Shown: positions 40,359 through 59,059 of the stretch, in pieces
Numbering within the stretch: position 1 is the first letter of the stretch
Layout: every line of letters begins with the position of its first letter
Origin: Natrarchaeobius chitinivorans
GTDB lineage: Archaea; Halobacteriota; Halobacteria; Halobacteriales; Natrialbaceae
DNA: 64,000 bases
NCBI RefSeq assembly: GCF_003841505.1
Contig: NZ_REGA01000002.1
Span: 310,001 to 374,000, forward strand
Reading direction: 5' to 3'
The notes under the pieces: generated by a model
Database searches by the model: none
Told to the model about the DNA's origin: nothing
What the model saw: the letters and a program-made list of their open reading frames with translations, nothing else
Position numbers and translations under genes: made by a program

Positions 40359-42893
40359 TTAGCCGCGGATTCGTTCGTTCTCGGGGTCGAACAGCGGTCT
40401 GCTCCCAACGACCTCGACGGTTACCGGATACCGTTCGCCCATGTACTCGACGTGGAGATCCTGCCCTTCCTCGGCGTACTCCGGCGGGAGGTACGCCATG
40501 AGGAGGTGCTTGCCGACGGTCGGTCCGGTCCCCGCGCTCGTCACGTACGATTCGCGACCCTCGCCGTCGACGATCACGTCGCCCTCTTCGTCCAGTATCG
40601 GCTCGTTACCCAGCATGAATCGCCGCTCGCCGTCTGCCGACAGGTGATCGACGACCGAGAGCGTACACAACGTGGCCGCGTTCTCCTCTTCGATCGCGTC
40701 CGCGTACGCGTCCTTGCCGACGAAGTCCGCGTCTTTGACGCCGTGGAACGTCAGACCGGCTTCCGCGGGCGTGTACTCGAGTTCGAGTTCGTGACCGTAG
40801 AGGCGATACCCCTTCTCCATCCGACCGGTCGTTCCGTAGACGCCCATTCCGACGGGTCGAATGTCGTACTCCTCGCCAGCCTCGGCGATGGTATCCCAGA
40901 GCCGTCGTCCCTGTCCCATCGGCGCGTAGACCTCCCACCCGAGTTCGCCCACGTAGGAGAGACGCATCGCCCAGGCGTCGACTTCGCCGACGGTTAAATC
41001 CTGGGCCGTGTACGGCGGGAACGCCTCGTCGGACACGTCTTCTTCGGCGACGTCGGCGATCACGTCGCGGGCGTCGGGCCCCCAGATGCCGAGCGTACAG
41101 AGCGACTCGGATCGGTCGATCAGACTCACGTTCCCGGTATCCGGAATGTGGCGTGTGAACCATGCACGATCGGAGCCGGCCGCCGCACCGCCGGTTATCA
41201 CCCGGTACCGTTCGGGGCCGAGACGTGCGATCGTCAGATCGGAGACGAAACCGCCGTTCTCCGCGAGAATCGGTGTATAAACCGTTTTGCCGACGTCGAC
41301 GTCGGTTCGACCGACGGCCATCCGTTCCATATATTCGGGAACGTCGGATCCGACGAAGTCGAAGATGCCAAAACCCATGTCGCCGATCATGGCGACGTTG
41401 TCGCGCATGTGACAGTGTTCGGCGAGGATGATCGGCGACCACCAGCGCGAATCCCACTCGTTGGGGCGCGTAAGCCCTGCAAGTTCGGTGTTGTACTCCG
41501 TGAGCAGATCCCGGTTCGACTCGAACCACTGTGGACGCTCCCAGCCGGCGGCCTCGAAAAACTGCGCGTCGAGGTCCTCTTGCCGGTCGTAGAACGCGCT
41601 GGTTCGAAGCGGCCGCGAACTCTGCCACTGTTCGGCCGGATGGACGATGCCGTAGATCTTCTGGAACCCCTCTCGAGAGCGGTTCTCGACGAACGTTCGG
41701 GAGGTCCCGTACTCGTAAAAACGGTTGACGTTCGACGCGTGGAGGTCAATGTCGGACCAGCCACGCGTCATCCACTGGGCGACGGCCTCACCGATCGCCG
41801 GCGCTTCCTTGATCCAGACGGCCGCACACGACCACAGCCCCTCGACGTCCTGCAGCGGGCCGAGTAGCGGCATCCCGTCCGGGGTCTGTGAGAGGAGTCC
41901 GTCGATCTCGTGGCGGACCCCGGCCTCCGGATCGTCGAGCAACTGGGGGACGATCTCGAGGGCGTCCGCCATCGACTGTTCGAACGCGTCGTCGGTCAGC
42001 GGCGGCTGGGTCGGCGAGAGCGGTGCCTCCTCGATCGACGGCACGTCGTCGACGTCCCAGAGGATCGGTCGGTGCTGATAGGAGCCGACCTCGAGGTCGT
42101 TGCCGTGCTGGCGTTCGTACATCTGCGTGTCCATATCCCGTATGACGGGAAACGAGATCTCGCCTTCGTACTCCTCGAAGTACGAGATCGGTCCGACGCT
42201 GACCATCTGGTGGACCGCAGGTGTCAGCGGGATCTCGACGCCGGCCATCGCGGCTATCTTTGGGCTCCACAGTCCCGCTGCGATCACTACCTCGTCAGCC
42301 TGAACGGTTCCGCGATCCGTCTCGACGGCCCGGATGGCTCCGTCCTCGACGTGGAGGTCGAGCACCGTCGTGTTCGGCGAGACCGTCAGTCCGCCGTCGG
42401 CGGCGTGGTCCGCTCGAGCACGCATGACCTCGCCCGCCCGGAGCGGATCACAGGTCCCGGCACTCGGGCTGTAGAACCCACCTTCGATGATCTCCGTGTT
42501 GAGATAGGGGACCATCTCCTCGACCTCGTCGACGTCGAGCATCCTGCCGGGTTCGCCCCAGGCTTTGGCCGACTGGACGCGTCGCTCGAGTTCGTCCATG
42601 CGCTCTTCCGTACGGGCCACCTCGAGCCCGCCGCTTTCGGTGAACGTGTCCATGTCCTCGTACTGCTCGATACTCCGGCGGGTCAGGTGGGTCATCTCCT
42701 TCGAGTGTTCGACGGGCATGAGGAAGTTCGACGCGTGGCCCGTCGACCCGCCGGGGTCCGGCAGCGGTCCCTTGTCCAGTACGACGAGGTCCGTTCGGCC
42801 CTGCTCAGTGAGGTGGTAGGCGAGACTGTTCCCGACGATCCCGGCCCCGATGATGACTGTCTCCGCACTCGAGGGGAGGTCGCGTTCGCTCAT
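40359..42893 (-). CDS. Dimethylglycine/sarcosine dehydrogenase-like flavoprotein with C-terminal GcvT domain
   Basis: 844 residues from ATG 42893; the frame extends upstream without family likeness. Residues about 10-400 are a DAO-type FAD oxidoreductase: ETVIIGAGIVGNSLAYHL dinucleotide-binding loop and GGSTGHASNF, where His53 is placed like the His that carries covalent FAD in dimethylglycine dehydrogenase. Residues about 430-844 are folate-binding GcvT-like (YGTTGRMEKGYRLYGHELELEYTPAEAG, FVGKDAY, GKHLLMAYLP). Such enzymes demethylate dimethylglycine or sarcosine and hand the carbon to tetrahydrofolate as methylene-THF. The etfBA genes downstream fit the electron path. Substrate (dimethylglycine, sarcosine, or another N-methyl compound) is not decided. 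Confidence 0.88.
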   Translation of the reverse strand: MSERDLPSSAETVIIGAGIVGNSLAYHLTEQGRTDLVVLDKGPLPDPGGSTGHASNFLMPVEHSKEMTHLTRRSIEQYEDMDTFTESGGLEVARTEERMDELERRVQSAKAWGEPGRMLDVDEVEEMVPYLNTEIIEGGFYSPSAGTCDPLRAGEVMRARADHAADGGLTVSPNTTVLDLHVEDGAIRAVETDRGTVQADEVVIAAGLWSPKIAAMAGVEIPLTPAVHQMVSVGPISYFEEYEGEISFPVIRDMDTQMYERQHGNDLEVGSYQHRPILWDVDDVPSIEEAPLSPTQPPLTDDAFEQSMADALEIVPQLLDDPEAGVRHEIDGLLSQTPDGMPLLGPLQDVEGLWSCAAVWIKEAPAIGEAVAQWMTRGWSDIDLHASNVNRFYEYGTSRTFVENRSREGFQKIYGIVHPAEQWQSSRPLRTSAFYDRQEDLDAQFFEAAGWERPQWFESNRDLLTEYNTELAGLTRPNEWDSRWWSPIILAEHCHMRDNVAMIGDMGFGIFDFVGSDVPEYMERMAVGRTDVDVGKTVYTPILAENGGFVSDLTIARLGPERYRVITGGAAAGSDRAWFTRHIPDTGNVSLIDRSESLCTLGIWGPDARDVIADVAEEDVSDEAFPPYTAQDLTVGEVDAWAMRLSYVGELGWEVYAPMGQGRRLWDTIAEAGEEYDIRPVGMGVYGTTGRMEKGYRLYGHELELEYTPAEAGLTFHGVKDADFVGKDAYADAIEEENAATLCTLSVVDHLSADGERRFMLGNEPILDEEGDVIVDGEGRESYVTSAGTGPTVGKHLLMAYLPPEYAEEGQDLHVEYMGERYPVTVEVVGSRPLFDPENERIRG

Positions 42894-43224
42894 CGTCGCT
42901 CCTGGCCTCCGCCGGAAGAGCGTTCGTTCTCCGGGTCGGACCGTACTCTCGGTTCGGTGGCGTACAGTATCATCGTCGTGTGGGAGTGACCACCGCACGG
43001 AGTATTAAAAGACCGCATACTTGACAGTATCGAGGAAAGTCGAGGAACGGCCACGACGGCCGGTGTTCGTCGATCCGCAGCCGAATTTAGCCGTATAAGG
43101 GTTGGAAGCGACGTTTTCGGAGTGAGTCTCGAGGGAGTTGGCCCCACGCCGGGGGACGGCCTCGAGGAACTCCTGGTGCCCACTCCACAACGTAAATCCG
43201 TTCTAACTCGTTGGGGAGTGTGGT
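42894..43224. other. Upstream region of the dehydrogenase-etfBA operon
   Basis: About 330 bp between the folCP stop and the dehydrogenase start, both on the minus strand. It has AT-rich patches (TATTAAAAG near 43000 and TTAGCCGTATAAGG near 43088) that could be promoter elements. No gene seen. Confidence 0.4.
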
Positions 43225-45705
43225 CTATCGACGAAATTCGGTTCGCTGTGCAGTGGCGATGGCCGCAGCGTTCGGTTCGACGTCGTGGACGCGAACGAGG
43301 TCGACGCCGCGCTCGGCTGCGAGCGTCGTCGCGGCGATCGTCGGAGCGAGCCGGTCGCCCTCGGGGTGGGTCACGGATTCGAGCATCGACTTTCGGGAGT
43401 GTCCGACCATAAGCGGTGTCCCGAGCGCCCGGAACTCCGCGAGTCGGTCGAGCAGTTCGAAGCTCTGGGACGGCGTCGTGCCAAAGCCGAGTCCCGGATC
43501 GACGATCAACTGGGATCGATCGATTCCCGCGCGCTCGGCGAGGATGATACGTTCGGTGAGGGTCTCGAGGACGTCCTCGACGACGTCGTGGGAGACGTAC
43601 CGGCGATCGGGATCGACCGGAACCGACGGGCTGTGCATGAGCACTGCCGGAACGTCGTACTCGGCGACCACCTCCCGTACCCGCGAGTCCGTGAGTCCGG
43701 TCACGTCGTTTACCATCTCGGCCCCCGCATCGAGCGCGGCCTCGGCGACCGACGGTTTGTGCGTATCGATCGAAATCGTCGCGTCGAGACCGTCGAGACG
43801 ATCGAGGACGGGAAGAACCCGCTCGCGTTCCGTTTCGGCGCTGATCGGTTCGGCTCCCGGCCGAGTCGACTCGCCGCCGACGTCGATGACGTCCGCCCCC
43901 GCAGCCACCATCTCTTCGGCGCGGACGACCGCGTCCTCGACCGCGTCGTACTCGCCCCCGTCGTGGAACGAATCCGGCGTCACGTTCAGAATCCCCATCA
44001 CGGCCGTTTCGCTGGCCCAGGGATACTCGCCGCTCGAGTCGTCGCTTCCGAGACCGACCGCGTTCGTCAACTGCTCGGCGAGTCGCCGGCCGCCGATCGC
44101 CCGGCCGCGCAGTCGCGCCGTGAGCGTTTTGAACTGGGCGATCGTCCCTGCGAGCACCACCTCGACGTGTTGATCCGTCGCCTCGACGCCGGAGACCGCA
44201 CAGGTTCCACCCAGCGACGCCATCAGCGTACGTAACTCGGCCGCCTCGTCGTGACGGACGTGAACTCGAACCGTTCGTCGGGGGATCCGATCGACGCAGT
44301 TCCGATGCCTGGCCGCAGGGACGTCCGCCTGGGTCAGCACTCTCCGGGCCTGTTCCCGCGTCGAGGTCCGAACCGATCGAATCGACCGCGTCCACCGATC
44401 GCGGGCCTCGGCCACGACGGAGAGCGACCCGGTTACGAGGACGCAGTCCGACGGGTCGGCGGTCCGAAGCGCCCGGTCGAGCGCGACGAGGACCGATTCG
44501 TAGCGATCGATCGTCGCATCCGTCTGGTCGTCGAATATCGCTGCGAGTGAATCCGTCCCCCGGGCGCGCTCGACGTCCGGTGACGCGAGGTAGACCCGGT
44601 CGGATTCCGGAAGCGCACGACACATTCCGGGGACGTCTTTCTCGCGCAACGCGCCGAAGACGAGGTGAAGGTCGTCGTACTCGAACCGCTCGAGAAGCGT
44701 CGCGACGGTCGAACACGCGTCGGGATTGTGCGCGCCATCGAGGATCGAAAGCGGTTCGTCGCCGACGAGTTCGAACCGACCGGGCCAGCGGACGTTTCGG
44801 ATCCCGGCTGTGATATCGTCGGTCGACGGATCGGCGACCTGTCGCGCGAGGGTGGCCGCGATACCGGCGTTGACGGCCTGGTGCGATCCCAGAAGCGGTA
44901 TTCGACTTCGGATCTCCCACTCCGGCCCGACGATCGAAACCGAAGACATCGTCTTCGTCACCATTCCCCCCTCTTTGACCCGAACGTCGGGAACCGAATC
45001 GGATGCGTCGATCGAGTCGCCGCTCGCCCGAGCCGTCCCCGAATCGGATTCGCCGGCGGGCCCGACCGTCACGACGTCGGTCTCACGACGAATCTCGGAG
45101 AGCGCCTCACCCGTCGCGCCGGTCACCAGCGGTGCGTCGCCGGGGGCAACCTGTGCCTTGTCGCGTGCGATTTCGGCGACCGTCGATCCGAGGATGTCGG
45201 TGTGCTCGAGACTGACGGAGGTGACCGCGGCTGCGACGGGATCGACGACGCTCGTCGCGTCGTACCGACCGCCGATTCCGACCTCGAGGACGGCGACGTC
45301 GACCCCCTCGCGCTCGAAGTGCCAGAGGGCCATCGCCGTGAGTACCTCGAAGAACGTCGGTGCCTTGCTCTCCGTGGACCGTTCGATCACGTGTGGCCAG
45401 ATCGCTTCGACGAAGTCGACGACCTCCGCCTTCGGGATCTTCCGTCCGTCTACCGTGATCCGTTCGCGTCGATCGTTCAGGTCGGGCGAAGTGTAACAGC
45501 CGACGGTGGCCCCGGATTCCCGCAGAATTCGATCCAGCAGTCGGGCCGTGCTGCCTTTCCCGTTCGAGCCGGCGATCTGGACGGCGACGAGTTCTTCCTG
45601 GGGATTTCCGATCTCCGCGAGCATCGCTTCGGTCGCGTCCGTCCCCATCTCGGGCCGCAGACGTCGCAGTCGTTCCAGCCTGTTAATCGCCTCGTGATAC
45701 TCCAT
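43225..45705 (-). CDS. folCP: Bifunctional dihydrofolate synthase/dihydropteroate synthase
   Basis: 826 residues from ATG 45705 (MEYHEAINRLERL). The N-terminal ~420 residues are FolC (Mur-ligase fold): AGSNGKGSTARLLD P-loop, YTSPDLNDRRERI, LEVGIGGRYDATSV, LEHTDILG, and ILDGAHNPDA. The C-terminal ~280 are FolP: MGILNVTPDSFHDGGEY, DVGGESTRPGAEPIS, NDVTGL, VDPGLGFGTTPSQSFELL and VGHSRKSML. Between them is a ~130-residue linker domain. FolP joins pterin to p-aminobenzoate and FolC adds glutamate. Haloarchaea are known for this fusion. It supplies the THF used by fhs, the dehydrogenase and the GcvT-like proteins nearby. Confidence 0.94.
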   Translation of the reverse strand: MEYHEAINRLERLRRLRPEMGTDATEAMLAEIGNPQEELVAVQIAGSNGKGSTARLLDRILRESGATVGCYTSPDLNDRRERITVDGRKIPKAEVVDFVEAIWPHVIERSTESKAPTFFEVLTAMALWHFEREGVDVAVLEVGIGGRYDATSVVDPVAAAVTSVSLEHTDILGSTVAEIARDKAQVAPGDAPLVTGATGEALSEIRRETDVVTVGPAGESDSGTARASGDSIDASDSVPDVRVKEGGMVTKTMSSVSIVGPEWEIRSRIPLLGSHQAVNAGIAATLARQVADPSTDDITAGIRNVRWPGRFELVGDEPLSILDGAHNPDACSTVATLLERFEYDDLHLVFGALREKDVPGMCRALPESDRVYLASPDVERARGTDSLAAIFDDQTDATIDRYESVLVALDRALRTADPSDCVLVTGSLSVVAEARDRWTRSIRSVRTSTREQARRVLTQADVPAARHRNCVDRIPRRTVRVHVRHDEAAELRTLMASLGGTCAVSGVEATDQHVEVVLAGTIAQFKTLTARLRGRAIGGRRLAEQLTNAVGLGSDDSSGEYPWASETAVMGILNVTPDSFHDGGEYDAVEDAVVRAEEMVAAGADVIDVGGESTRPGAEPISAETERERVLPVLDRLDGLDATISIDTHKPSVAEAALDAGAEMVNDVTGLTDSRVREVVAEYDVPAVLMHSPSVPVDPDRRYVSHDVVEDVLETLTERIILAERAGIDRSQLIVDPGLGFGTTPSQSFELLDRLAEFRALGTPLMVGHSRKSMLESVTHPEGDRLAPTIAATTLAAERGVDLVRVHDVEPNAAAIATAQRTEFRR

Positions 45706-45833
45706 ACCCAGAGGTTGACACGCCACCCAATAAAGGTCATGTGAGTCGAACGTCCCGAACGACTCGGCCGCTCCCGTCGCCCCGCCCGCTTCGGTTTCCC
45801 GCTCGTGTCTACGATCGGAAACGTATATCAACA

Positions 45834-45839
45834 TTTATA
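45834..45839 (+). promoter_or_regulatory. TATA box of fhs
   Basis: TTTATA centred about 30 bp before ATG 45866 in an AT-rich run (ATATCAACATTTATAC). Spacing implies a leaderless fhs transcript. Confidence 0.6.
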
Positions 45840-45865
45840 CAGCGGTCACGAGAAGATGGCCGCGT

Positions 45866-47584
45866 ATGACAACAACTGGCGAGGATGACGAATCGACACA
45901 GACGGACTACGAGATCGCACAGTCCGTGGAAACGGACCCCATCGTTGACGTCGTCGAACCGTTCGGACTCTCGGAAGACGATCTGGAACTGATGGGCGAG
46001 GAGAAAGCCAAAGTAACGCTCGAGGCGATCGAACGCATCAAACGAGAAAAAGACGATGACGGGAAACTCGTCCTCGTCACCGGCATGACGCCGACGCCGC
46101 TCGGAGAGGGCAAGACCGTAACGACGGTCGGGCTCGGACAGGCGTTCAACCAGATCGGGAAAGACGCGCTCGTCGCGGTTCGGGAACCGTCGCTCGGGCC
46201 CGTCTTCGGAGTCAAAGGCGGTGCCGCCGGCGGCGGATACTCGCAGGTGCTTCCGATGGAGGACATCAACCTCCACTTTACCGGAGACCTCCACGCCCTC
46301 ACGTCGGCGCACAACCTCATCGCGACGATGCTCGACAACCACATCAAGCAGGGCAACGAGTTGAACATCTCGGTCAACCAGGTCAACTGGCCGCGTGCGA
46401 TCGACATGAACGACCGGGCGCTGCGCGAGACCGTCGTCGGCCTCGGCGGCGACGTCACCGGCGTCCCACGGGAAGACGGGTTCATCCTGACCGCCGCGTC
46501 GGAACTGATGGCCGTGCTCTGTCTGGCCGACAGCATCGAGGATCTCAAAGCGCGTATCGGCCGCATCATCGTCGCCTACGACGAGGACGGCGATCCGATC
46601 ACGGTCGACGACATCGGCGCGACGGGAGCCGCTTCGATCCTGTTGAAAGACGCACTGAAACCGAACGTCGTCCAGACCATCGAGGGAACGCCCGCGTTCG
46701 TCCACGGCGGTCCGTTCGCGAACATCGCCCACGGAACCAACTCGTTGATCGCTGACGACGTCGCCTCTCATCTCTCGGAGTACCTGGTCACCGAGGCCGG
46801 CTTCGGCTCCGACCTGGGAGCCGAGAAGTTCATGAACATCGTCTGCCGGTTCGGCGACATGGAACCCGACGCGGTCACGCTCGTCGCCTCCGTGCGGGCG
46901 CTCAAGTACCACGGCCAGGAGATGTGGCCACCCGACCTCGACGAACTCGAAGCGGAAGACGTCGACGCAGTAGAGCGCGGCCTCGAGAACCTCGACAAGC
47001 ACGTCACCAACCTGCAGAAGTTCGGCGTGCCAGTCGTCGTCGCGCTCAACCGGTTCCCCGGCGACACCGACGCGGAGGTCGACGCCGTCCTCGATCACTG
47101 CCGTGACGAACTCGGAATCCGTGCCGCGGAGTCGACCGTCTTCGGTGAGGGCGGCGAGGGCGGAATCGAACTCGCCGAGAACCTGGTCGACGCAGCGGAG
47201 TCCGAATCGGAGTACGAACCGCTGTACGACATCGACGCCCCGATCAAAGAGAAGATCGAAACCGTCGCAACCGAGATTTACGGCGCTGACGGCGTCAACT
47301 TCAGCAGCGACGCCGAGGACGACATGGAGCGACTCACTGACCACGGCTTCGACGACGTCCCGATCTGTATGTCGAAGACGTTCCACTCGCTCAGCGACGA
47401 CGCGAGCAAGAAGGGCGTTCCCGAAGACTGGACGCTCGACGTAAACGAAATCTACCCCTCGGCGGGAGCCGGGTTCCTCGTTGTACTGACGGCGGACGTA
47501 CTCACGCTCCCCGGCCTTCCGGGCGAACCGGCGGCTGCAGGGATGGATCTCGACTCCGACGGAAACGTCTCCGGCCTGTTCTAG
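45866..47584 (+). CDS. fhs: Formate-tetrahydrofolate ligase
   Basis: 572 residues, full length for the family. Catalyses formate + ATP + THF to 10-formyl-THF, reversibly. The P-loop is TPTPLGEGKTVTTVGL (about 75-90); other hallmarks are REPSLGPVFGVKGGAAGGGYSQV, DINLHFTGD, ITAxxNL-like LTSAHNLIATMLDNH, AFVHGGPFANIAHG and EAGFGSDLGAEKF. Divergent from folCP. In a demethylation pathway it could run in reverse, giving ATP and formate from 10-formyl-THF, or forward to feed purine synthesis; the sequence cannot tell. Confidence 0.96.
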   Translation: MTTTGEDDESTQTDYEIAQSVETDPIVDVVEPFGLSEDDLELMGEEKAKVTLEAIERIKREKDDDGKLVLVTGMTPTPLGEGKTVTTVGLGQAFNQIGKDALVAVREPSLGPVFGVKGGAAGGGYSQVLPMEDINLHFTGDLHALTSAHNLIATMLDNHIKQGNELNISVNQVNWPRAIDMNDRALRETVVGLGGDVTGVPREDGFILTAASELMAVLCLADSIEDLKARIGRIIVAYDEDGDPITVDDIGATGAASILLKDALKPNVVQTIEGTPAFVHGGPFANIAHGTNSLIADDVASHLSEYLVTEAGFGSDLGAEKFMNIVCRFGDMEPDAVTLVASVRALKYHGQEMWPPDLDELEAEDVDAVERGLENLDKHVTNLQKFGVPVVVALNRFPGDTDAEVDAVLDHCRDELGIRAAESTVFGEGGEGGIELAENLVDAAESESEYEPLYDIDAPIKEKIETVATEIYGADGVNFSSDAEDDMERLTDHGFDDVPICMSKTFHSLSDDASKKGVPEDWTLDVNEIYPSAGAGFLVVLTADVLTLPGLPGEPAAAGMDLDSDGNVSGLF

Positions 47585-47693
47585 CCACACCACTCTGTAG
47601 ACGATTTTCAGCTTTTTCACTGTCAGATCACCTGCACCCCACGAGAGACGCCAGTAGCTATAATTCGGTGGACACCGTTCGGCGACGCGTGTG

Positions 47694-47849: not shown

Positions 47850-47898
47850 GCTAACTTATTTGCAATAGCTCCGCGAATATTCTCACGGAGGAGCGAGG

Positions 47899-48336
47899 AT
47901 GTACGAGAAGATTCTCATCCCGACAGACGGGAGCGACCCCGCACAGGATGCCGTCGATCACGGCATCGAACTCGCGAAGGGGTTCGATTCGACCGTTCAC
48001 GCGCTTTACGTGATCGAAACCAAAGCCCACTACGTCTTTACGGCCGCAGGACACGACCCAGAAGAGATGGAGGAGTATCGGGAGTACGGCACAGAAATCG
48101 TCGAGGAAGTCGTCGACGCTGCCGCGGACGCGGGCCTCGACGGCGAGGGAGTCATAAAGACCGGTAGCGTCGCCCAGGAAATCGTCAGATACGCAGACGA
48201 AAACGGTATGGGGTGTATCGTCATGGGTGTGCAAGGCCGAAGCGGTATCGACGACTATCTGGTCGGCAGCACGACCGAAAAGGTCGTCCGGACCTCGAAC
48301 GTTCCGGTTACGACCATTCGTCACGACGAGGTGTGA
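47899..48336 (+). CDS. Universal stress protein, UspA family
   Basis: 145 residues with one Usp fold. Starts MYEKILIPTDGSDPAQDAVDHGIELA and carries the ATP-binding motif GVQGRSGIDDYLVGSTTEKVVRTSNVPV (G-2x-G-9x-G-S/T). A clear GGAGG ribosome site lies 9-13 bases upstream. Single-domain ATP-binding Usps are often next to transporters and stress genes; here a BCCT transporter follows on the other strand. Confidence 0.93.
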   Translation: MYEKILIPTDGSDPAQDAVDHGIELAKGFDSTVHALYVIETKAHYVFTAAGHDPEEMEEYREYGTEIVEEVVDAAADAGLDGEGVIKTGSVAQEIVRYADENGMGCIVMGVQGRSGIDDYLVGSTTEKVVRTSNVPVTTIRHDEV

Positions 48337-51088: not shown

Positions 51089-52282
51089 GTGGTACCGGCG
51101 AAGGTGGCTACCGACAGTTCGGAGACGGGATCGAAAACCGCCCTCGAGGAGCTTTTTTACCACACGGACGGCGTCAGATTCATCTACTGGCGGCAGTTTA
51201 CGGGAGCCAGACCGGCAGTGTATCTGACCGCCCTCGTCGCGGTCGCCGCATTCGTAACCGGTCTCTCACATCTCAGTCGGGACGTCGTCCTGCTGGAGGG
51301 GCCGCTCGCTCCCGTTCTTCCGATTTCCGAGGGATCCGCCAGTATCGCTGGAGTAGTCGTTGCCTTCCTACTGGTTGCGCTCACGTTCGGCCTGATCCGA
51401 CGGAAACGGGTGGCCTGGTACTGTATTATCGTCGCCGTTCCGCTGTCGGCGGTCGTCCCGCTCGCGACGTTACAGTCGACGGATCTCCCGCTTCTGTTGC
51501 TGATACTGGTTACGTTTCCACTACTCGTTCGAAACCGACACCAGTTCGATCGACGACTCGACCTCTCGGCGATACAGATCGCGTCGCTCTCGTCGATCGT
51601 CGGCGTCCTGTTGTACGGAACGGTGGGCTCGTACGCCATTCGCGATCAGTTCGTCACGATCGACACCTGGGGGGACGCGGTTTACTACGTCATCGTCACT
51701 ATCGCAACCGTCGGCTACGGGGACATTACGCCGGTTACGTCACAGGCCAAGTGGTTCTCCCTCTCGGTTATCCTCCTCGGGACGGGAGCGTTCACGGCCG
51801 TCCTCGGGAGCTTCATCGTTCCGGCGATCGAAAAGCGAATGGCGGCAGCAGTCGGAACCATGAGTCCGGATCTCACACTCCACGAGGATCACGTCCTGGT
51901 CCTCGGATACGGCACGATCGCAGCGGCGATGATAGAGACGCTCGACGACGTCGACGTCGTCGTCGTGACCGCCGAGGCCGACACGGCCTCGTCTCTGAAC
52001 GGAACGAACGTCGACGTGGTCGCCGACGATCCGGCGAGTACGTCGACGCTCCAGGCCGCCAACATCGACGCCGCACGTGGTGTCGTCGTCGCAACCGAAG
52101 ACGATGCGCGAGACGTTCTGGCGATCGTCGCCGCGAAACAGGCGAACCCGGACGTCCGAATCGTCGCAGCGGCGAACGAACAACGTCACGCCGACAAACT
52201 CGAAGCAGTCGGGGCGGACGACGTCGTCAGTCCGACGCTGATCGCCGGCAAACTGCTCGGCGAGTCCGTCCTCGAGCGATAA
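51089..52282 (+). CDS. Potassium channel with TrkA-N (RCK) domain
   Basis: 397 residues, GTG start (an in-frame GTG at 51104 is an alternative). Five or six hydrophobic helices precede the pore loop TIATVGYGDITPV, the K+ selectivity filter (near 212-220). After the inner helix comes an RCK Rossmann domain with VLVLGYGTIAAAMIE and acidic strand ends (VVVTAEAD, VVADDPAS). It probably lets K+ cross in response to a cytosolic ligand or voltage. Lying between two BCCT genes, it suggests a block for osmotic adjustment. Confidence 0.9.
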   Translation: MVPAKVATDSSETGSKTALEELFYHTDGVRFIYWRQFTGARPAVYLTALVAVAAFVTGLSHLSRDVVLLEGPLAPVLPISEGSASIAGVVVAFLLVALTFGLIRRKRVAWYCIIVAVPLSAVVPLATLQSTDLPLLLLILVTFPLLVRNRHQFDRRLDLSAIQIASLSSIVGVLLYGTVGSYAIRDQFVTIDTWGDAVYYVIVTIATVGYGDITPVTSQAKWFSLSVILLGTGAFTAVLGSFIVPAIEKRMAAAVGTMSPDLTLHEDHVLVLGYGTIAAAMIETLDDVDVVVVTAEADTASSLNGTNVDVVADDPASTSTLQAANIDAARGVVVATEDDARDVLAIVAAKQANPDVRIVAAANEQRHADKLEAVGADDVVSPTLIAGKLLGESVLER

Positions 52283-52376
52283 CCGTCACGGTTCTCTGAC
52301 CCGGAGCACGTCGACACCGGTGATCCGGATCTCCCTCGACAGAACTACTATCACCGGCGAAGTGGTACCGTCTGTC

Positions 52377-54221
52377 ATGGCTACCCACGGTACGGGTGGG
52401 ATAGAGCGGACTCTCCGACGCGCGCTCGTCCCCCTGTTCGCCCTCTCTGGAGCCGTCGTGGTCACGGCGTTTTTCTTTCCGGCGATCGTCGGGGACGTCG
52501 TCTCGGGACGCGTCTGGCTGTTCCTGTCTCTCGTCTTCTTCGGCTCGGGGTTGAGCTACGTCTCCCTGTTGCCCCTCGAGGCCGAAGAGGGGGAAAAAAC
52601 TGACGAACCGGACGATCCACGCCGCGTCCTGACCGTCCGTCGAATTTCCCGTCTCGATACGGCACGGGAGTTTTTCGCCGGACAGGATCCGATCGTCTTC
52701 GGCACGTCGGTGGGCGGGCTTACGGCCTTTTTCGGACTGTATCTGCTTGCACCGGCGACGATGGCCACCTCGATCAGCGTCGTTCGGAACGTCCTCTTGC
52801 GGGAGTTTGGGTGGCTGTTTGCGGCTCCGATCCTCGTCTCCGTGGTGTTCTGTCTGTACCTGCTCGTCGGCCCCTGGGGCGACATCAAACTCGGCGGTCC
52901 GGACGCGACCCCGGGGTACACGTATCCAGTGTACTTCACGATGTTTTTCACCGCGGGAATCGCCGCTGGAATCGTCTTCTGGGGGCCTGCGGAAGCCCTC
53001 TTTCACTATCGGGAGCCGCCGCCGTCCATGGCGGCCGAACCCCGATCGGACGCGGCCGTCGTTGGCGCACTGACCTACGCCCTGTTCCACTGGGGGTTCT
53101 CGGCCTGGAGCGCATACGTCGTCGTCGGCGTGCCGATCGCGTACTTCGTCTACCAGCACGGAGCCCCCCTCCGCGTTTCGACGGCGCTGGCGCCGTTTCT
53201 CGGCCTCGAGGGACTCGATTCCGTCTGGGCTCGATTCGTCGACTTGCTCGCGGTACTCGCGACGATCGGTGGAATCGCGACCTCGATCGCGCTCGTGAGT
53301 CAACAGTTTCTCGCGGGGATCGATCATCAGTGGGCCGTAACGTACGGGACCGGCGGATCCGTCCTGTTCGTGACGGGTCTGACGGCAATTTTCGTCATTT
53401 CGGCTCGAACTGGAGTCCACCGCGGCATCCGACGTCTCTCGGCGATCACGATACTCCTCTTCGCGCTCGTTTCGGTCGTCCTGTTCGTTCTCGGTCCACG
53501 GTGGTTCGTTCTCGAGCAGGGTGCCGCCGCGGTCGGGCGCTACGCCGTCACGTTCGTGCCGATGAGCGTCGAGTTCGGCACCGAGTGGGCCGCCGGCTGG
53601 ACCGTCTGGAACTGGTCGTGGTGGTTCTCGTGGGCCCCCTTCGCCGGATTATTTCTCGCCGCACTCTCGAAGGGAAGACGTATCAGGACGGTCGTCCTCA
53701 CCGGATTCGTCGCGACCTCGATGGCCACGATGACGTGGTTTCTCCTCCTGGGGGGAACCGCAATTCAGTTCCAGCGGTCCGGTCGCGCCGACATCCTCGG
53801 TGCCGTCGAAGCGTTCGGCGGTTCGGAGGCGGTCGCCGGCTTTCCGCTGTTCCAGGCGCTGGCGCTCGGCCAGTTGCTTACGTTTCTCTTTCTCGCGCTC
53901 ATCATTTGCTTTATCGCGACGTCGGCAGACACCTCGACGCTCGTCGTCGCGATCCTCGCGGCCAGACACGAGGTCGCCCCGACGACCGGTGCGGTCGTCT
54001 TCTGGGGTCTCTTTCAGGGCGTCGTCGCCGTCTCCGTGCTGGTCACGGGGAGCGCACAGACACTCCAGACCGCGGCGGTGTTGACAGGCGCTCCGATCGC
54101 GCTCGTGTCGGTCGTCGCAGTGGTCGGTCTAACGCGATTTTGCCTCGAGCACGAGCGCGGACACGCATCGGCGTTCGGACGACTTCGGTCAGTCGTCCTC
54201 GAGCGTGAAACCGACGACTGA
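52377..54221 (+). CDS. BCCT-family transporter 2, divergent
   Basis: 614 residues from ATG 52377 (in-frame ATG at 52320 has no better support). Twelve helices. Core signs: GPWGDIKLGG, FTAGIAAGIVFWGPAEALFHY (Gly-rich TM3, Glu-Ala in place of Glu-Pro), FHWGFSAWSAYVVVG, WNWSWWFSWAPFAGLFLAALSKGRRIRT (Trp box), and ATSADTSTLVVAIL. The TM1-TM2 link is unusually long and acidic (EAEEGEKTDEPDD). The departures from transporter 1 suggest a different substrate or coupling ion. Confidence 0.88.
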   Translation: MATHGTGGIERTLRRALVPLFALSGAVVVTAFFFPAIVGDVVSGRVWLFLSLVFFGSGLSYVSLLPLEAEEGEKTDEPDDPRRVLTVRRISRLDTAREFFAGQDPIVFGTSVGGLTAFFGLYLLAPATMATSISVVRNVLLREFGWLFAAPILVSVVFCLYLLVGPWGDIKLGGPDATPGYTYPVYFTMFFTAGIAAGIVFWGPAEALFHYREPPPSMAAEPRSDAAVVGALTYALFHWGFSAWSAYVVVGVPIAYFVYQHGAPLRVSTALAPFLGLEGLDSVWARFVDLLAVLATIGGIATSIALVSQQFLAGIDHQWAVTYGTGGSVLFVTGLTAIFVISARTGVHRGIRRLSAITILLFALVSVVLFVLGPRWFVLEQGAAAVGRYAVTFVPMSVEFGTEWAAGWTVWNWSWWFSWAPFAGLFLAALSKGRRIRTVVLTGFVATSMATMTWFLLLGGTAIQFQRSGRADILGAVEAFGGSEAVAGFPLFQALALGQLLTFLFLALIICFIATSADTSTLVVAILAARHEVAPTTGAVVFWGLFQGVVAVSVLVTGSAQTLQTAAVLTGAPIALVSVVAVVGLTRFCLEHERGHASAFGRLRSVVLERETDD

Positions 54222-54346
54222 ACGGTTCGAGCAGCCGCCTAACAACAGATGAACAGTTCCAAACGGGCCGTTCGGATCCGTTCTATCGACGACTATAGAT
54301 CGAGCGAGAGAAACGCTCTTCTACCCGTGTCATGTTAGTAAGTACC

Positions 54347-54742
54347 ATGGGAGATATCGGTGGCTGGTGGGTCGCGAGTCACGACGCGAACCCTGGCGAG
54401 GAGACGATCGCCACGTATCACGTCAACTACCTCCGACCCGATCGGCGACCCCTCGGCGGCAAACTGTACCTCACCGACCAGCGACTCCTGTTCAGCCCGC
54501 ATCTGATCGACTCCCTCCTCGGCGGGGAAACGGTCGCAATCGACGTCCGAGATATCGACGACGCAGCGCGAGCATCCGGCGGCGAGAACGGTGGGCCGCC
54601 GACGGATTCTCTCCGCCTCGAACTGGCGAGTGGGGAATCCGAGTCGTTCGTCGTCGACGAACTCGAGGACGCGATCGGGCAGATCCGGTCCGCGCTCCCG
54701 TCGTCGGGGGCCTCCCGGAGCGATTCACCGAGACGGTCGTAG
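54347..54742 (+). CDS. GRAM/PH-like domain protein
   Basis: 131 residues from ATG 54347. GGKLYLTDQRLLFSPHLIDSLLGGE and VAIDVRDIDDAARA match the beta-strand pattern of GRAM/bacterial-PH domains, followed by a C-terminal helix ELEDAIGQIRSAL. Small single-domain proteins like this may bind lipids or peptides. No specific role visible. Confidence 0.65.
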   Translation: MGDIGGWWVASHDANPGEETIATYHVNYLRPDRRPLGGKLYLTDQRLLFSPHLIDSLLGGETVAIDVRDIDDAARASGGENGGPPTDSLRLELASGESESFVVDELEDAIGQIRSALPSSGASRSDSPRRS

Positions 54743-54798
54743 CATCGCGGAGTCCACGCCGAGATCGTGTTTCGGCTGGAGACATCCGGGAGAAAACA

Positions 54799-56079
54799 CT
54801 ATCCGTCGGCCCCGTAATTCCCCACCGGCGACTCCGCAGGCGCACGGTTCACCACGTCGACGTCGTAGCCGTGATCGGTGATCGACTCGACGATGTTGCG
54901 GGCGTGTTCAGCACCGCTCGTCTCGACCTGAAAGATGAGATAGGCCTCGCCGACGTCTAAGTCCTCGAGGGCACGGTCGTGTCGAACGGTCTGAATGTTC
55001 GCATCGTGGTCCGCGATGACTCCCGAGAGTTCCGCCATCTTCCCGGGTCGATCGTCGATGTGAACGCGGAGTCGCAGGATCTGCCGGCGGTGAGTCAGGG
55101 CGTGGATCAGTATCGCCCGGAGCATCGTCATGTCCAGGTTGCCCCCACAGAGCAACGGCATCACGCGTTCCCCCTCGACGTCGAGTTCGTCGCCTTGGAT
55201 CGCCGCGACTGCGGCCGCGCCGGCCCCTTCGACCAGTTGCTTCGACCGCTCGAGCAAGACGAGGACGGCGTCGGCGATTTCCCCGTTCGTGACGGTTACG
55301 ATTTCGTCGACGTGGCGTTCGATGATCGACAGCGTCAGCTCCGAGACGCCGCCGGTCGCGATTCCGTCGGCGATCGTATCGACCGACTCGAGAGTCTGTG
55401 GAACGCCCTTGTCGAGGCTGTCCAGAACCGTCACGGCCCCGGCCGCCTGAACGCCAACGACCCGCGTGTCGGGGCTTCGTTCGGCGAAGGCGGTCGCAAT
55501 TCCACTTATTAGACCACCGCCACCGATCGGAACGACGACCGTCTCCGCGGCCGGGTAGTCCTCGACCATCTCGAGTCCGAGCGTCCCCTGCCCGGCGACG
55601 ATCGCCGGATCGTCGAAGGCGTGGACGAACTCCGCCTCTCCCTCATCGGCGAGCGTTCGTGCGTGGGTCGTCGCTTCCTGAAAGTCCTGCCCGACGAGCT
55701 CGACCGACGCGCCGTAGCCGCGGGTCGCGTCGATTTTTGTCTGGGGAGCGGTCTTCGGCATCACGACCGTCGATTCGATCCCGAGTTTCGTCGCAGCCAG
55801 TGCGACGCCCTGTGCGTGGTTGCCGGCGCTGGCTGCGACGACCCGTTCGGTACCTCGTTCCTCGAGACAGCGTCTGATCTTGTTGTACGCGCCCCGCGTC
55901 TTGAACGAGCCAGTCCACTGGAGATGCTCGAGTTTGAGGACGACCTCTGCGGCACCGGTCATCGACTCGAGGGAGGTGCTTCGTTCGGTCGGCGTTCGTT
56001 TGACGACCGACGGGTCGTCAAGTCGCTCCCGTGCAGCCTCGATATCGGCGAACGAAACGGATTCGTCTCCGTCGCTCAT
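54799..56079 (-). CDS. ilvA: Threonine/serine dehydratase with ACT domain
   Basis: 426 residues from ATG 56079, preceded on the minus strand by a strong GGAGGTGA ribosome site; a longer open frame upstream lacks family likeness. PLP enzyme, fold type II: WTGSFKTRGAYNKI with the Schiff-base Lys, AASAGNHAQGVALAA, PIGGGGLISGIATAF phosphate loop, and LCGGNLDM. The C-terminal ACT domain (LRLRVHIDDRPGKMAELSGVI) may bind an amino-acid effector. It deaminates threonine to 2-oxobutyrate and usually also serine to pyruvate, which would fit with serine formed from glycine plus methylene-THF in this neighbourhood. Confidence 0.93.
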   Translation of the reverse strand: MSDGDESVSFADIEAARERLDDPSVVKRTPTERSTSLESMTGAAEVVLKLEHLQWTGSFKTRGAYNKIRRCLEERGTERVVAASAGNHAQGVALAATKLGIESTVVMPKTAPQTKIDATRGYGASVELVGQDFQEATTHARTLADEGEAEFVHAFDDPAIVAGQGTLGLEMVEDYPAAETVVVPIGGGGLISGIATAFAERSPDTRVVGVQAAGAVTVLDSLDKGVPQTLESVDTIADGIATGGVSELTLSIIERHVDEIVTVTNGEIADAVLVLLERSKQLVEGAGAAAVAAIQGDELDVEGERVMPLLCGGNLDMTMLRAILIHALTHRRQILRLRVHIDDRPGKMAELSGVIADHDANIQTVRHDRALEDLDVGEAYLIFQVETSGAEHARNIVESITDHGYDVDVVNRAPAESPVGNYGADG

Positions 56080-56593
56080 CGCCGGGTCACCTCCCGTCGT
56101 TGGTCCGAGCGAGTTCTCGAAGCACAACGTATCGCCCTCCAGACGCGAATTGTGAGGGGGCGATACCGGAGGAGTCGGTTGCTGCGCTCGTTCCGGTTCT
56201 GGTTCGATCTCTCGTCTCGGTCGATTTGGTTGCTCGCTCGAAACTGTCCCGTTCTGGCGGTACTGCGCTCTGAGTCGTGGATCATCGTTCGTTACTTCCT
56301 CGCCCACTGTCGGGTGTGGGCGTCTCTCCAGCCCTCACCGAACCAGGTCACCGTGCATCGGTATCAATACACAGGATGATCGGACGGTTCACAGGGTCAT
56401 CGAACGATCGAAGAGGATCTCGCGGGACCACTTCGTCGATACGATTCCACAAAATGTACGAATTATATCACTTGTTGGAACAGCATCTGGAAGACGGTGA
56501 TCGAATTCGATCGCACGTATTCTGGGCTTTATCGGCCACCAAATCCGGGTTTATCGATATCCGCTCCGCAGGAAGACCCTTGCCACTCCCACA

Positions 56594-56599
56594 TTTATG
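56594..56599 (+). promoter_or_regulatory. TATA box of the DmdA-like gene; 545-bp divergent interval
   Basis: TTTATG within ACATTTATGT, 26-31 bp before ATG 56625, which implies leaderless transcription from that ATG and supports it over earlier in-frame starts. The rest of 56080-56624 between this gene and ilvA holds no gene I can support. Confidence 0.6.
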
Positions 56600-56624
56600 T
56601 GCTGTGTCGTACATGTGTATCGTA

Positions 56625-58001
56625 ATGTCCGACAGCCAACCGCCGCGGACGGAGAGTCAGGACCACCCGAACTACCCGAGCGTCGATCAGTCCGATCGGA
56701 CGGTCCCGAGAAACCTTCGCCAGTCAGGCGATCCGGGTATCGAGATGCTCGTCTCCACGCGCGTCCGGAAATCACCGTTTTTCCACAAATCGTTCGTCGA
56801 GAACGGTGCCTGGCGCGCCACGGTTTACAACCGGATCTATCACCCTCGAGGGCTCGTCGAACCCGAAGAGGGCGGTATGATGGAGGAGTACGACGCGCTC
56901 GTCAACCGGGTCACCCTGTGGGACGTCGCGGTCGAACGCCAGATCCGCGTCGAAGGCCCTGACGCGGAGGCGCTTACCGATTACGTCATCACCCGGGACG
57001 CCACGGAGATCGAACCGATGCACGGCAAGTACGTCATCCTGTGTAACGAAGACGGCGGGATCCTCAACGATCCCGTCCTGTTGCGTCCCGGCGAGGACGA
57101 GTTCTGGTTTTCCATCTCGGATTCGACGCTGATGCAGTGGCTACAGGGCGTCAACGTCGGAAAAGGATTCGACGTCGAGATCGACGAAATCGATGTCGCG
57201 CCGATGCAGATCCAGGGGCCGCGGTCGGTCGACGTGATGGTCGACGTAGTCGGCGAAGAGGTCGAAGGGATTCCCTACTACGGCCTGATGGAAGCCGAGA
57301 TCGACGGCTGTCCGGTACTGGTCAGCCAGACTGGCTTCTCCGGCGAGAAGGGGTTCGAAATCTACGTTCACGACGCGACGAAACACGCCGAAGCCGTCTG
57401 GGACCCCGTCCTCGAGGCCGTCAGAGACCACGGTGGCATGCAGGTCGCACCGGCCCACCACCGCCGCATCGCCGCGGGAATCCTCTCGTGGGGACAGGAT
57501 ATGGACCACGAGACGTCGCCGTTTCAGGTCAACCTGGGCTATCAGGTCCCCGAGGACAAAGACGCCGACTACGTCGGCAAGGAAGAACTCGAGCGCCAGC
57601 GGGACCTGATCGCGGACGGCGAGTACCCGTTCGTCCACAAGATGGTCGGACTCAAACTCGCCGGCGAGCCGATCCGGGACTACGCGCCGGACTTCTGGCT
57701 CATCTCGGACCCGGAGACGGGAGAGGAGTGTGGATACGTCACCTCGCCGTGGTACAACCCCGAACTCGAGACGAATCTCGCACTCGGGTTCGTCCCCGCG
57801 GCGAAACTCGACGGCGACGTCTCCGAGGTGTACGACGGCGAAATCGAGACGGAGTTCCAGGTTCACCTCCCCGACGAGTACGCCGAGGAACCCGGAGAGC
57901 CGGTGTACGCCAAAGTCTCCGAAGTTCCGTTCAAACCGTCGGTCAACCCGAGCGCCCGCGAGCAGGCGAAACTGAACGCACGGGAGAAATCGACCGAATG
58001 A
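56625..58001 (+). CDS. GcvT-family THF-dependent demethylase, DmdA-like
   Basis: 458 residues. Not a normal glycine-cleavage T protein: it begins with the STRVRKSPFFHKSF block and then ATVYNRIYHP, LWDVAVERQIRVEG and NEDGGILNDPV, a layout like the DMSP demethylase DmdA (which has R-R-T-P-F, TVYNHM, LWDVSVERQV, NGGIVNDPV). Later segments QIQGPRSVDVM, GFSGEKGFEIYV and FVGKEEL-like YVGKEEL are shared by all GcvT folate proteins. It should transfer a methyl group from a methylated donor to THF, giving methyl-THF. The MetF-like gene 191 bp downstream could oxidise that product. Donor (DMSP, betaine, dimethylglycine or other) is unknown. Confidence 0.82.
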   Translation: MSDSQPPRTESQDHPNYPSVDQSDRTVPRNLRQSGDPGIEMLVSTRVRKSPFFHKSFVENGAWRATVYNRIYHPRGLVEPEEGGMMEEYDALVNRVTLWDVAVERQIRVEGPDAEALTDYVITRDATEIEPMHGKYVILCNEDGGILNDPVLLRPGEDEFWFSISDSTLMQWLQGVNVGKGFDVEIDEIDVAPMQIQGPRSVDVMVDVVGEEVEGIPYYGLMEAEIDGCPVLVSQTGFSGEKGFEIYVHDATKHAEAVWDPVLEAVRDHGGMQVAPAHHRRIAAGILSWGQDMDHETSPFQVNLGYQVPEDKDADYVGKEELERQRDLIADGEYPFVHKMVGLKLAGEPIRDYAPDFWLISDPETGEECGYVTSPWYNPELETNLALGFVPAAKLDGDVSEVYDGEIETEFQVHLPDEYAEEPGEPVYAKVSEVPFKPSVNPSAREQAKLNAREKSTE

Positions 58002-58192
58002 GCGACACGCACGGTGGTGCCGACCGTACGAGTGGTCCACGATGTCGTCCGGGCGATCCACGAGGTCGACCAATCGATACCGCCGGAAACACCGACTCGA
58101 CGGCCGACCGATCGTCCACAGCCGTCGCTGACGGGGACGGTCACCGACCCGCACGAAACAAGTCGACAGACACCCTGGTTCGAATCGAGTAG
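57998..58192 (+). CDS. Candidate small ORF (64 aa) wedged between the DmdA-like and MetF-like genes
   Basis: Its ATG overlaps the TGA of the preceding gene (ATGA) and its TAG touches the ATG of the next gene, so it fills the gap exactly. The product (MSDTHGGADRTSGPRC...) is hydrophilic, rich in Asp, Arg, Ser and Thr, with no fold or motif. It may be a real coupled peptide, a spacer kept open to couple translation, or chance. Codon use is not decisive. Confidence 0.4.
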   Translation: MSDTHGGADRTSGPRCRPGDPRGRPIDTAGNTDSTADRSSTAVADGDGHRPARNKSTDTLVRIE

Positions 58193-59059
58193 ATGGCATC
58201 GGAAATAGAACGCATCGACACGGGTGAGGGCATCAGGACGTTACTCGAGGAGCCGCGGTTCGAACTGATGCCGTTCGAGAGCATGGACGAACAGCTAGAA
58301 CACCTGCCTGAGGGGGCCGAAGTCGCCATCACGACCTCACCGACGCTCGGCCTGGAAGCGACGATCGACTGGACCGAACGGGCGTCTGAGCGCGGCTACG
58401 AGATCGTCCCCCACGTCGCCGCGCGGTACGTTCGAGACCGGGAACACCTCGAGGAACTCACGGGGCGACTCACTGATGCGGGCGTCACCGACGTCTTCGT
58501 CCCCGGCGGCGATCGCGAAGAACCGGTCGGCGAGTTTTCGTCCGCCTACGAACTGCTGTCTGCACTCGACGAACTCGACTCCGGGTTCGATGACGTCGGG
58601 ATTACCGGGTATCCCGAGGGACACGCGTTTCTCGACGATGAGGTCCTCGCCGAGTCGATGGCAGAAAAAGAGCCCTACGCCACCTACATCGTGACCCAGC
58701 TGTGTTACGACGCCGAGACGATCCTCGAGTGGATCGAGGACGTCCGGGACCGTGGCGTCGACCTCCCGGTCGAGATCGGCATTCCGGGCGTCATGAAGTA
58801 CCAGCGGTTGCTCGGTATCTCGAAGAAAGTCGGCGTTGGTGATTCGGTTCGATTCCTGCAAAAGACGACCGGGGTACTCGATTTCGTTCGCCGGTTCGTC
58901 GGCGCTCGCGGAATGTACACCCCGGCCGACCTCGTCGAGGGAATCGCCCCGTACGCGACCGATCCGTACTACGACGTACGCGGCGTCCACATCTACGCGT
59001 TCAACCAGGTACTCGACCTCGAGTCGTGGCGTGCGGAGACGCTCGACCAGCATCGGTGA
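58193..59059 (+). CDS. Methylenetetrahydrofolate reductase-like protein (MetF family)
   Basis: 288 residues, TIM-barrel flavoprotein family. Segments AITTSPTLGLEATIDWTERASERGYEIVPHVAARYVRD (substrate His in PHVAAR), VFVPGGDRE (usually ALRGD), GITGYPEGH, YIVTQLCYDAETILEWI and PVEIGIPGVM are typical. It interconverts methylene-THF and methyl-THF with FAD. Same strand as, and close to, the DmdA-like demethylase, so here it probably runs in the oxidative direction from methyl-THF. The cofactor that reoxidises FAD is unknown. Confidence 0.88.
   Translation: MASEIERIDTGEGIRTLLEEPRFELMPFESMDEQLEHLPEGAEVAITTSPTLGLEATIDWTERASERGYEIVPHVAARYVRDREHLEELTGRLTDAGVTDVFVPGGDREEPVGEFSSAYELLSALDELDSGFDDVGITGYPEGHAFLDDEVLAESMAEKEPYATYIVTQLCYDAETILEWIEDVRDRGVDLPVEIGIPGVMKYQRLLGISKKVGVGDSVRFLQKTTGVLDFVRRFVGARGMYTPADLVEGIAPYATDPYYDVRGVHIYAFNQVLDLESWRAETLDQHR

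Follow-up and report, generated by a model that had tools for sequence, protein, structure and literature searches.

A haloarchaeal gene island with a DmdA-like protein as a candidate folate-based route for betaine catabolism

Introduction

Why would a halophilic archaeon keep transporters for methylated solutes, a flavoprotein of dimethylglycine metabolism and a set of folate enzymes side by side? This question is raised by a 64,000-nucleotide stretch of the Natrarchaeobius chitinivorans genome (hereafter the window; positions 310001-374000 of contig C2 in an assembly of 4.57 Mb), in which an initial annotation had recognized a dimethylglycine/sarcosine dehydrogenase-like (DMGDH-like) flavoprotein with its own etfBA, a DmdA-like protein of the GcvT family paired with a MetF-like protein, folate genes and two BCCT transporters. 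It had proposed that betaine or a solute resembling dimethylsulfoniopropionate (DMSP) is taken up and demethylated onto tetrahydrofolate (THF). Here we compare this gene island across the class Halobacteria, and we suggest that it very likely serves the use of an N-methylated osmolyte by way of folate. More specifically, we propose that the island serves the catabolism of glycine betaine on THF, with the DmdA-like protein performing the first demethylation, a reading to which, taken as a whole mechanism, we assign a probability slightly above one half (about 0.55).

Glycine betaine is likely to be common in salt lakes. Dimethylglycine oxidase-like genes near BCCT transporters were described in four haloarchaea in 2011, with a suggestion that betaine, dimethylglycine or sarcosine is used (PMC3102087), so that the betaine idea has in part been in print since then. 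The routes described for removal of the first betaine methyl group are the Rieske oxygenase GbcAB, Bhmt and the cobalamin-dependent Mtg system (PNAS 2025, PMC12478193). In open-licence PubMed Central we found no tested haloarchaeal route for feeding on betaine and, among the matches listed there, no tested betaine demethylase of the GcvT family.

Results and Discussion

Distribution of the island across Halobacteria

We searched 194 genomes of Halobacteria with five proteins (DmdA-like, MetF-like, DMGDH-like, Fhs and a GbcA-like Rieske oxygenase) and with the PF06253 profile. A piece scoring >400 bits was counted as a DmdA-like orthologue, ordinary GcvT proteins scoring about 100 or less; the cut-offs were E<=1e-20 for MetF-like, E<=1e-100 for DMGDH-like and for Fhs, and E<=1e-70 for the Rieske oxygenase, whose query came from the haloarchaeal genome G118. 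A DmdA-like gene was found in 40 genomes. All 40 also carry a MetF-like gene, compared with only one of the 154 others, and all are among the 60 genomes with a DMGDH-like gene. Fhs occurs in 68 genomes, including 39 of the 40, and the single miss (G184) is an assembly of 93% completeness. The genes also lie close together: the DmdA-like and MetF-like genes are <=10 kb apart in 33/40 genomes (and on different contigs in two more), and the start of the DMGDH-like gene is <=40 kb from MetF in 40/40 and from the DmdA-like gene in 34/40. This clustering is not due to chance. The initial annotation had made its proposal depend on co-occurrence of these genes in related genomes, and they do co-occur. 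It had also looked to conserved synteny across the Natrialbales; the island is class-wide and patchy rather than a trait of that order, and it is missing from both of the further genomes that our set contains from the window's own genus.

The distribution of the Rieske oxygenase was then compared with that of Fhs. The GbcA-like protein occurs in 28 genomes: 19 of the 20 with a DMGDH-like but no DmdA-like gene, eight of the 40 with a DmdA-like gene, and one of the 134 without DMGDH. The difference between 19/20 and 8/40 gave a Fisher value of 1.8e-8 (by genus 8/9 versus 4/15, p=0.009), in tests that assume independence of genomes or genera, an assumption that does not hold. Fhs shows the opposite pattern, being present in 39/40 genomes with the DmdA-like gene and 1/20 other DMGDH genomes (by genus 15/15 versus 1/9). 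Only one DMGDH genome (G053) lacks both the DmdA-like gene and the Rieske oxygenase. Given these opposite patterns among the 60 DMGDH genomes, the first demethylation of betaine seems to fall to the DmdA-like enzyme in place of the Rieske oxygenase, with 5-methyl-THF as the product.

Gene neighbourhoods were compared in 34 sets of stretches: 28 come from genomes with the DmdA-like gene (28/40, counting the window's own), and six are additional sets. The families accompanying DMGDH and MetF were BCCT1 (27 sets), Usp (25), Fhs, IlvA and HTH_10 (22 each), FolCP (16), M14 hydrolase (14), FdhA (12), FolD (11) and GlyA (11), and an etfB family stood next to the DMGDH-like gene in 11 sets; these counts treat as misses G014 and G129, where a simple gene caller based on GC content returned no families although DmdA-like, MetF and Fhs genes were located in or near the stretches by searches of the genomes, and also G073, whose stretch cuts its DmdA-like gene. 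The names FdhA, FolD, GlyA, M14, Rieske and oxidase derive from NCBIfam, and CysE, RidA and PabA-/PabB-like from inspection. In a second collection, the best 80 of 354 named loci, all haloarchaeal and from species partly shared with the 194-genome set, 40 of the 55 DmdA-like loci of full length had MetF no more than about 10 kb away, and eight of the 15 loci without a nearby MetF hold a 68-70% identical paralogue without partners. The same island is present on plasmid pHH400 of Haloarcula hispanica, where HAH_RS18290 is the DmdA-like gene, HAH_RS18285 the MTHFR gene and HAH_RS18225 the Fhs gene.

The Rieske-type loci share DMGDH-like, IlvA, GlyA and BCCT genes with the DmdA-type island. In the 19 genomes of the Rieske type, stretches roughly 20 kb long held IlvA in 17, BCCT in 16, an oxidase of monomeric sarcosine oxidase (MSOX) type in 13, FolD in four and FolCP in one, and MetF and Fhs in 0/19, the stretch of G192 stopping short of its Rieske copies. 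The best NCBIfam match of the oxidase was N-methyl-L-tryptophan oxidase.

Several further observations concern these neighbourhoods. The M14 deacylase-like gene (loci L042, L053, L068, L080 and L181:23937-24893) weakly matches DoeB of the ectoine pathway, and an uncharacterised protein of about 400 residues often sits between it and MetF. A protein of 115-127 residues lies beside the GbcA-like gene in six stretch sets (L091:5862-6230, L093, L092, L097, L099 and L083); the one tested matched no NCBIfam family. Some strain names contain 'GB' (Natronococcus A-GB1 and A-GB7, Halostagnicola A-GB9-2, Haloarculaceae H-GB1-1), which suggests betaine enrichments, but this is no more than a lead, as we found no paper on those names in open-licence PubMed Central.

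The DmdA-like and MetF-like proteins

The best match of the DmdA-like protein in the PDB is Pelagibacter DmdA (3tfh, 1.1e-41). It scores 235 bits on the NCBIfam equivalog model for DMSP demethylase, below the cut-off of 410, and 125.7 bits on the GcvT model TIGR00528, below the cut-off of 235.85; two other PF01571 genes of this genome each lie directly 5' of a gcvH-like gene. In a tree of 30 rows, whose root serves drawing only, the ten haloarchaeal DmdA-like rows form a single clade (100/100), whose sister clade (94/86) comprises eight bacterial rows including DmdA, the two being joined at 97/96. The protein thus belongs to a separate haloarchaeal clade and does not group with the DmdA proteins of DMSP loci. 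An AlphaFold model of it was weak, with a mean predicted local distance difference test score (pLDDT) of 56.8.

We also examined the motif SKQGG, which is present in 3tfh and in four bacterial proteins, namely the DmdA proteins of Phaeobacter and Marinovum, a Marivivens protein beside dmdD, and a Phaeobacter G2 protein whose locus has no DMSP-type neighbours. All 27 haloarchaeal proteins have SGE[KAE]G at this site. The motif does not decide the DMSP question, because SSELG is found in three relatives from Loktanella and Phaeobacter loci that hold acyl-CoA synthetase and hydratase genes. The bacterial sample behind this comparison is small, consisting of eleven bacterial records and one from H. 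hispanica out of 488 plasmid records matched. A Trp has been named as key for DMSP (PMC7487153), its W171 being equated here with 3tfh W197 by our own mapping. We dropped this single residue as a DMSP marker, since Tyr occupies the position in two DmdA proteins from plasmids; in the haloarchaeal proteins it is Phe (27/27).

The second DmdA-like paralogue had no searched-for partner gene within about 10 kb in 8/8 loci (L167, L169, L170, L174, L175, L178, L179 and L180; matches from 10001 onward), and its substrate may differ.

The MetF-like protein is closest in both sequence and fold to the methylenetetrahydrofolate reductase (MTHFR) of Sphingobium SYK-6. A phmmer search of the PDB gave 2.8e-30 for SYK-6 MTHFR (7xg9) and 2.6e-11 for the next MTHFR, and the top three Foldseek matches of a model built from 21 sequences (mean pLDDT 81.6) were the SYK-6 structures 7xg9/7xlf. 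The SYK-6 subfamily favours oxidation of CH3-THF and partners a LigM-type demethylase (2026 review, PMC13001107). Judged by this kinship, the haloarchaeal protein probably runs in the oxidising direction, from CH3-THF to CH2-THF. We also inspected five bacterial loci out of 102 plasmid records matched by MetF. In four of them (two from Rhodococcus opacus, one each from Agrobacterium and Sphingobium), MetF has a GcvT-type protein and PurU as immediate or close neighbours, with FolD in two of these four and pabB or folP in both Rhodococcus loci; the fifth, from Arthrobacter, differs in having gcvPTH, glyA and a serine ammonia-lyase as neighbours. In a Lichenihabitans locus, chosen for its DmdA-like protein, that protein occurs together with MetF, PurU and FolD. 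Outside the island, a further MetF-like gene, 46% identical, is found in the window's genome at C5:27709-28527 (L095).

The flavoprotein

The flavoprotein has the domain architecture of the dimethylglycine oxidase/dehydrogenase family as well as its four key residues. Its best PDB match is Arthrobacter dimethylglycine oxidase (1pj5, 2.2e-146), with a weaker match to human dimethylglycine dehydrogenase (5l46, 2.2e-90). Residues matching H48, H225, Y259 and D552 of 1pj5 are identical in 49/49 aligned haloarchaeal rows, the window's included, six of 55 family rows having been dropped for length and the numbering being taken from the alignment. We take these to be the His linking flavin adenine dinucleotide (H48), the active-site His and Tyr (H225 and Y259) and the Asp of the folate site (D552). 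The gene lies 65 bases upstream of etfB, which overlaps etfA by 4 bases, and therefore the three genes look like one operon. The adjoining etfBA argues for a dehydrogenase, yet the sequence is nearer to the oxidase 1pj5 than to 5l46.

A proposed route for glycine betaine

From the genes, their conserved residues, their co-occurrence and their alternation with the Rieske oxygenase, we infer the substrate, the direct transfer to THF, and the directions of MetF and Fhs. In the proposed route, betaine would be taken up by the BCCT proteins, and the DmdA-like protein would transfer its first methyl group directly to THF, yielding dimethylglycine and 5-methyl-THF. The latter would be oxidised to methylene-THF by the SYK-6-type MetF. 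The flavoprotein would then remove the next two methyl groups as methylene-THF and pass electrons to the electron-transfer flavoprotein (ETF). GlyA could combine one methylene-THF with glycine to form serine, which IlvA would convert to pyruvate and ammonia, and two surplus one-carbon (C1) units would leave through FolD, Fhs working in reverse with formation of ATP, and formate dehydrogenase. If transfer to THF is direct, the first step of haloarchaeal betaine use would be independent of oxygen.

This scheme also bears on the opposite patterns of Fhs and Rieske genes. The Rieske and MSOX-type oxidase route would release two methyl groups as formaldehyde and one as methylene-THF, matching the conversion of glycine to serine. 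The DmdA-like route would place three methyl groups on THF, two of them surplus, so that FolD, Fhs and formate dehydrogenase would be needed. Fhs in 39/40 versus 1/20 genomes would be expected if all three methyl groups reach THF in one island type only. This stoichiometry fits the patterns, although it was conceived after they had been seen.

Much of the required machinery is present elsewhere in the window's genome. FolD (C3:36431) lies near GlyA (C3:34571), a second GlyA is also present, and the formate dehydrogenase alpha subunit FdhA (754 bits, above cut-off) is encoded at C2:274555, on the window's own contig. A run of gcvT-gcvH-gcvP-like-lpd-like genes occurs on C7 with an ilvA-like gene upstream (GCV_T by search, the other names by inspection). 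A haloarchaeal query retrieved no GbcA-like protein from this genome at E<=1e-70, and neither a PF06253 (MtgB-type) nor a PF02574 (BHMT-type) protein was found at E<=0.001. By eye, a short open frame at L008:19148-19360 looks like the C terminus of the MSOX-type oxidase from Rieske islands, and is perhaps a remnant of it in the window's genome.

The genome comparison supports demethylation of methylated amines onto THF with an ETF-linked flavoprotein, as well as both C1 fates named by the initial annotation, Fhs with formate dehydrogenase and serine with IlvA. Between its two substrates, betaine is favoured and a DMSP-like compound is less well supported, and the role of the DmdA-MetF pair is refined, in that a first betaine step is likelier than a DMSP enzyme and MetF is probably oxidising.

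Objections and alternative explanations

Several points weigh against the betaine route. Cobalamin-free transfer of a methyl group to THF is chemically harder from a quaternary ammonium than from a sulfonium. The single DMGDH-like gene of the window's genome at E<=1e-100 would have to serve two demethylations. Eight genomes hold both the DmdA-like and the Rieske gene, the Rieske copy lying about 100 kb or more from DMGDH in two of them (G030 and G126), and the dependence among genomes mentioned above also limits the contrast. A PF06253 (MtgB/MttB-family) protein is present in six genomes, all within the 40 with a DmdA-like gene and none among the 154 others, and its best copy is <=6 kb from Fhs in 6/6 (G001, G007, G017, G061, G063 and G098); therefore, a cobalamin-type methyltransferase may perform the first step there. 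As cited in PMC3102087, betaine was no help to H. walsbyi, and H. utahensis was unable to grow on it. We found no reports of growth, expression or enzyme activity on betaine for these genes in open-licence PubMed Central.

The substrate could instead be DMSP or another sulfonium compound, with the DmdA-like gene lying amid other osmolyte genes and the flavoprotein serving dimethylglycine from elsewhere. The sulfonium is the easier methyl donor, DmdA is the nearest solved structure and a member of the sister clade, and relatives of 36-39% identity adjoin acyl-CoA synthetase and hydratase genes or dmdD, as in DMSP-like loci. However, the score on the DMSP demethylase model falls below its cut-off, SKQGG is replaced throughout the haloarchaeal proteins (a point softened by the SSELG relatives), and no DmdB/C/D-like protein appears among the nameable island families, ten of the 34 commonest families having no name. 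DMGDH in 40/40 genomes and the alternation with a betaine-type oxygenase would also be left unexplained. We regard a DMSP enzyme as unlikely. We give equally little credence to another quaternary amine or betaine, such as choline, proline betaine or carnitine, as a precursor of dimethylglycine or parallel to it. BCCT proteins and relatives of the GbcA Rieske protein do include carnitine and stachydrine enzymes, and the island has more conserved genes without a known role, for example the M14 hydrolase; but the product must account for DMGDH in 40/40 genomes, and the alternative oxygenase scores best on glycine betaine monooxygenase, at 141 bits, though under the cut-off of 670. Less probable still is a role in C1 supply, in which the island would run from formate to methyl-THF for biosynthesis. 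In Halodesulfurarchaeum (H. formicicum), Fhs, MTHFR, FolD and Etf genes were read as formate-linked C1 metabolism of this kind (PMC5437934), and Fhs may have such a role in the 28 of 68 Fhs genomes that lack DMGDH. This explanation accounts neither for the company of DmdA-like, DMGDH and BCCT genes nor for the kinship of MetF with the oxidising MTHFR of SYK-6, and PMC5437934 itself mentions the possibility that surplus C1 units are oxidised to formate and CO2.

Comparison with known systems

The proposed betaine route resembles LigM-MetF O-demethylation of SYK-6 in coupling a THF-dependent demethylase of the GcvT family to an oxidising-type MTHFR (PMC13001107). It differs in that the haloarchaeal demethylase groups with DmdA, outside what we label the LigM-like clade of bacterial MetF neighbours, and in that Fhs stands in place of the PurU found near the bacterial relatives, some of which also have FolD. 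The SYK-6 system acts on aromatics, whereas here the setting is archaeal and the DMGDH and BCCT partners point to betaine. With DmdA itself the protein shares the fold family, the VYN and NDP motifs, the folate residues and the expected product, DmdA yielding 5-methyl-THF (PMC5395565); unlike DmdA, it falls under the family cut-off, forms a separate clade, lacks SKQGG and has no recognised dmdBCD neighbours. In SAR11, the DmdA relative SAR11_1265 adjoins metF, and SAR11_1303, a GcvT-like aminomethyltransferase encoded close to genes for betaine-type transport, has been postulated to act in betaine metabolism; but SAR11_1265 is tied to the second DMSP methyl group, the first betaine methyl is assigned to BHMT, and the available part of that report (PMC3160333) describes no DMGDH-etfBA-fhs island. 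Aerobic degradation by GbcAB and DMGDH follows the same order, from betaine through dimethylglycine and sarcosine to glycine (PMC12478193), whereas the window's genome has no detected Rieske oxygenase and would dispose of methyl groups on THF through MetF and Fhs. The cobalamin-dependent MtgBCD demethylase likewise ends with the methyl group on THF (PMC12478193); a PF06253 protein is confined to the six genomes mentioned above and was not found in the window's.

Compared with the open-licence literature, the DmdA-MetF pairing as an island marker, the Rieske alternation, the Fhs pattern and the resulting assignment were not found in print. We tentatively raise the possibility, which we hold at somewhat less than even odds, of a further class of betaine demethylase in the GcvT/DmdA family, one that would take a methyl group from a quaternary ammonium and pass it directly to THF, using neither oxygen, cobalamin nor homocysteine, and would be coupled to an oxidising MetF and an ATP-forming Fhs.

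Other features of the window

Gene families in the window were assigned by Pfam and NCBIfam searches, which placed every gene of the initial annotation, with its strand, where it had been reported (Table 1). Both pairs that it had singled out, the dehydrogenase with etfBA and DmdA with MetF, are present and sit in the island found across Halobacteria; the MetF-like gene lies 191 bases beyond the DmdA-like gene and has the same orientation. The HTH_10 pair possibly controls the island. An aldehyde ferredoxin oxidoreductase (AFOR_N, AFOR_C) is encoded at 35944-37749, 0.8 kb from etfA, its family occurring in 6/34 stretch sets, and may handle stray formaldehyde. Positions 4249-11301 on the minus strand form one open frame of 2350 residues with coding-like composition.

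Table 1. Genes of the island and its surroundings, in window positions
Feature	Position	Strand	Evidence and remarks
etfA, electron-transfer flavoprotein alpha	38552-39523	-	PF00766 4.5e-32, PF01012 1.7e-25
etfB, electron-transfer flavoprotein beta	39520-40293	-	PF01012 1.6e-32
Dimethylglycine/sarcosine dehydrogenase-like flavoprotein (DMGDH-like)	40359-42893	-	DAO+FAO_M+GCV_T+GCV_T_C; C-terminal folate domain; open frame extends to 42998
FolC-FolP fusion (folylpolyglutamate synthase + dihydropteroate synthase)	43225-45834	-	FolC+DHPS; TIGR01499 300 bits, TIGR01496 292 bits, both above cut-off
Fhs, formate-tetrahydrofolate ligase	45866-47584	+	NF010030 820.4 bits, above cut-off 652
Usp, universal stress protein	47899-48336	+	PF00582 6.8e-33; frequent island member; absent from the initial annotation
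BCCT transporter 1, probable betaine uptake	48474-50255	-	PF02028 1.3e-181; best NCBIfam glycine betaine uptake BCCT, 549 bits, below cut-off 650
K+-channel/TrkA_N protein	51089-52282	+	absent from the initial annotation
BCCT transporter 2	within 52320-54221	+	PF02028 5.8e-132, starting at residue 126; true start probably inside frame
GRAM-domain protein	54332-54742	+	absent from the initial annotation
IlvA-type threonine/serine ammonia-lyase with ACT domain	within 54799-56307	-	TIGR01127 449.6 bits, above cut-off; true start probably inside frame
DmdA-like GcvT-family protein, candidate THF-dependent glycine betaine demethylase	56625-58001	+	
MetF-like protein, candidate 5-methyl-THF oxidase	58193-59059	+	
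Two HTH_10 (bat-type) regulators	59489-60955	-	PF04967 9.6e-14 and 3.5e-16

Conclusions

If the proposal is true, a direct folate route would explain an island whose proteins carry the labels glycine cleavage T protein and MTHFR, and betaine demethylation would be possible in oxygen-poor brines.

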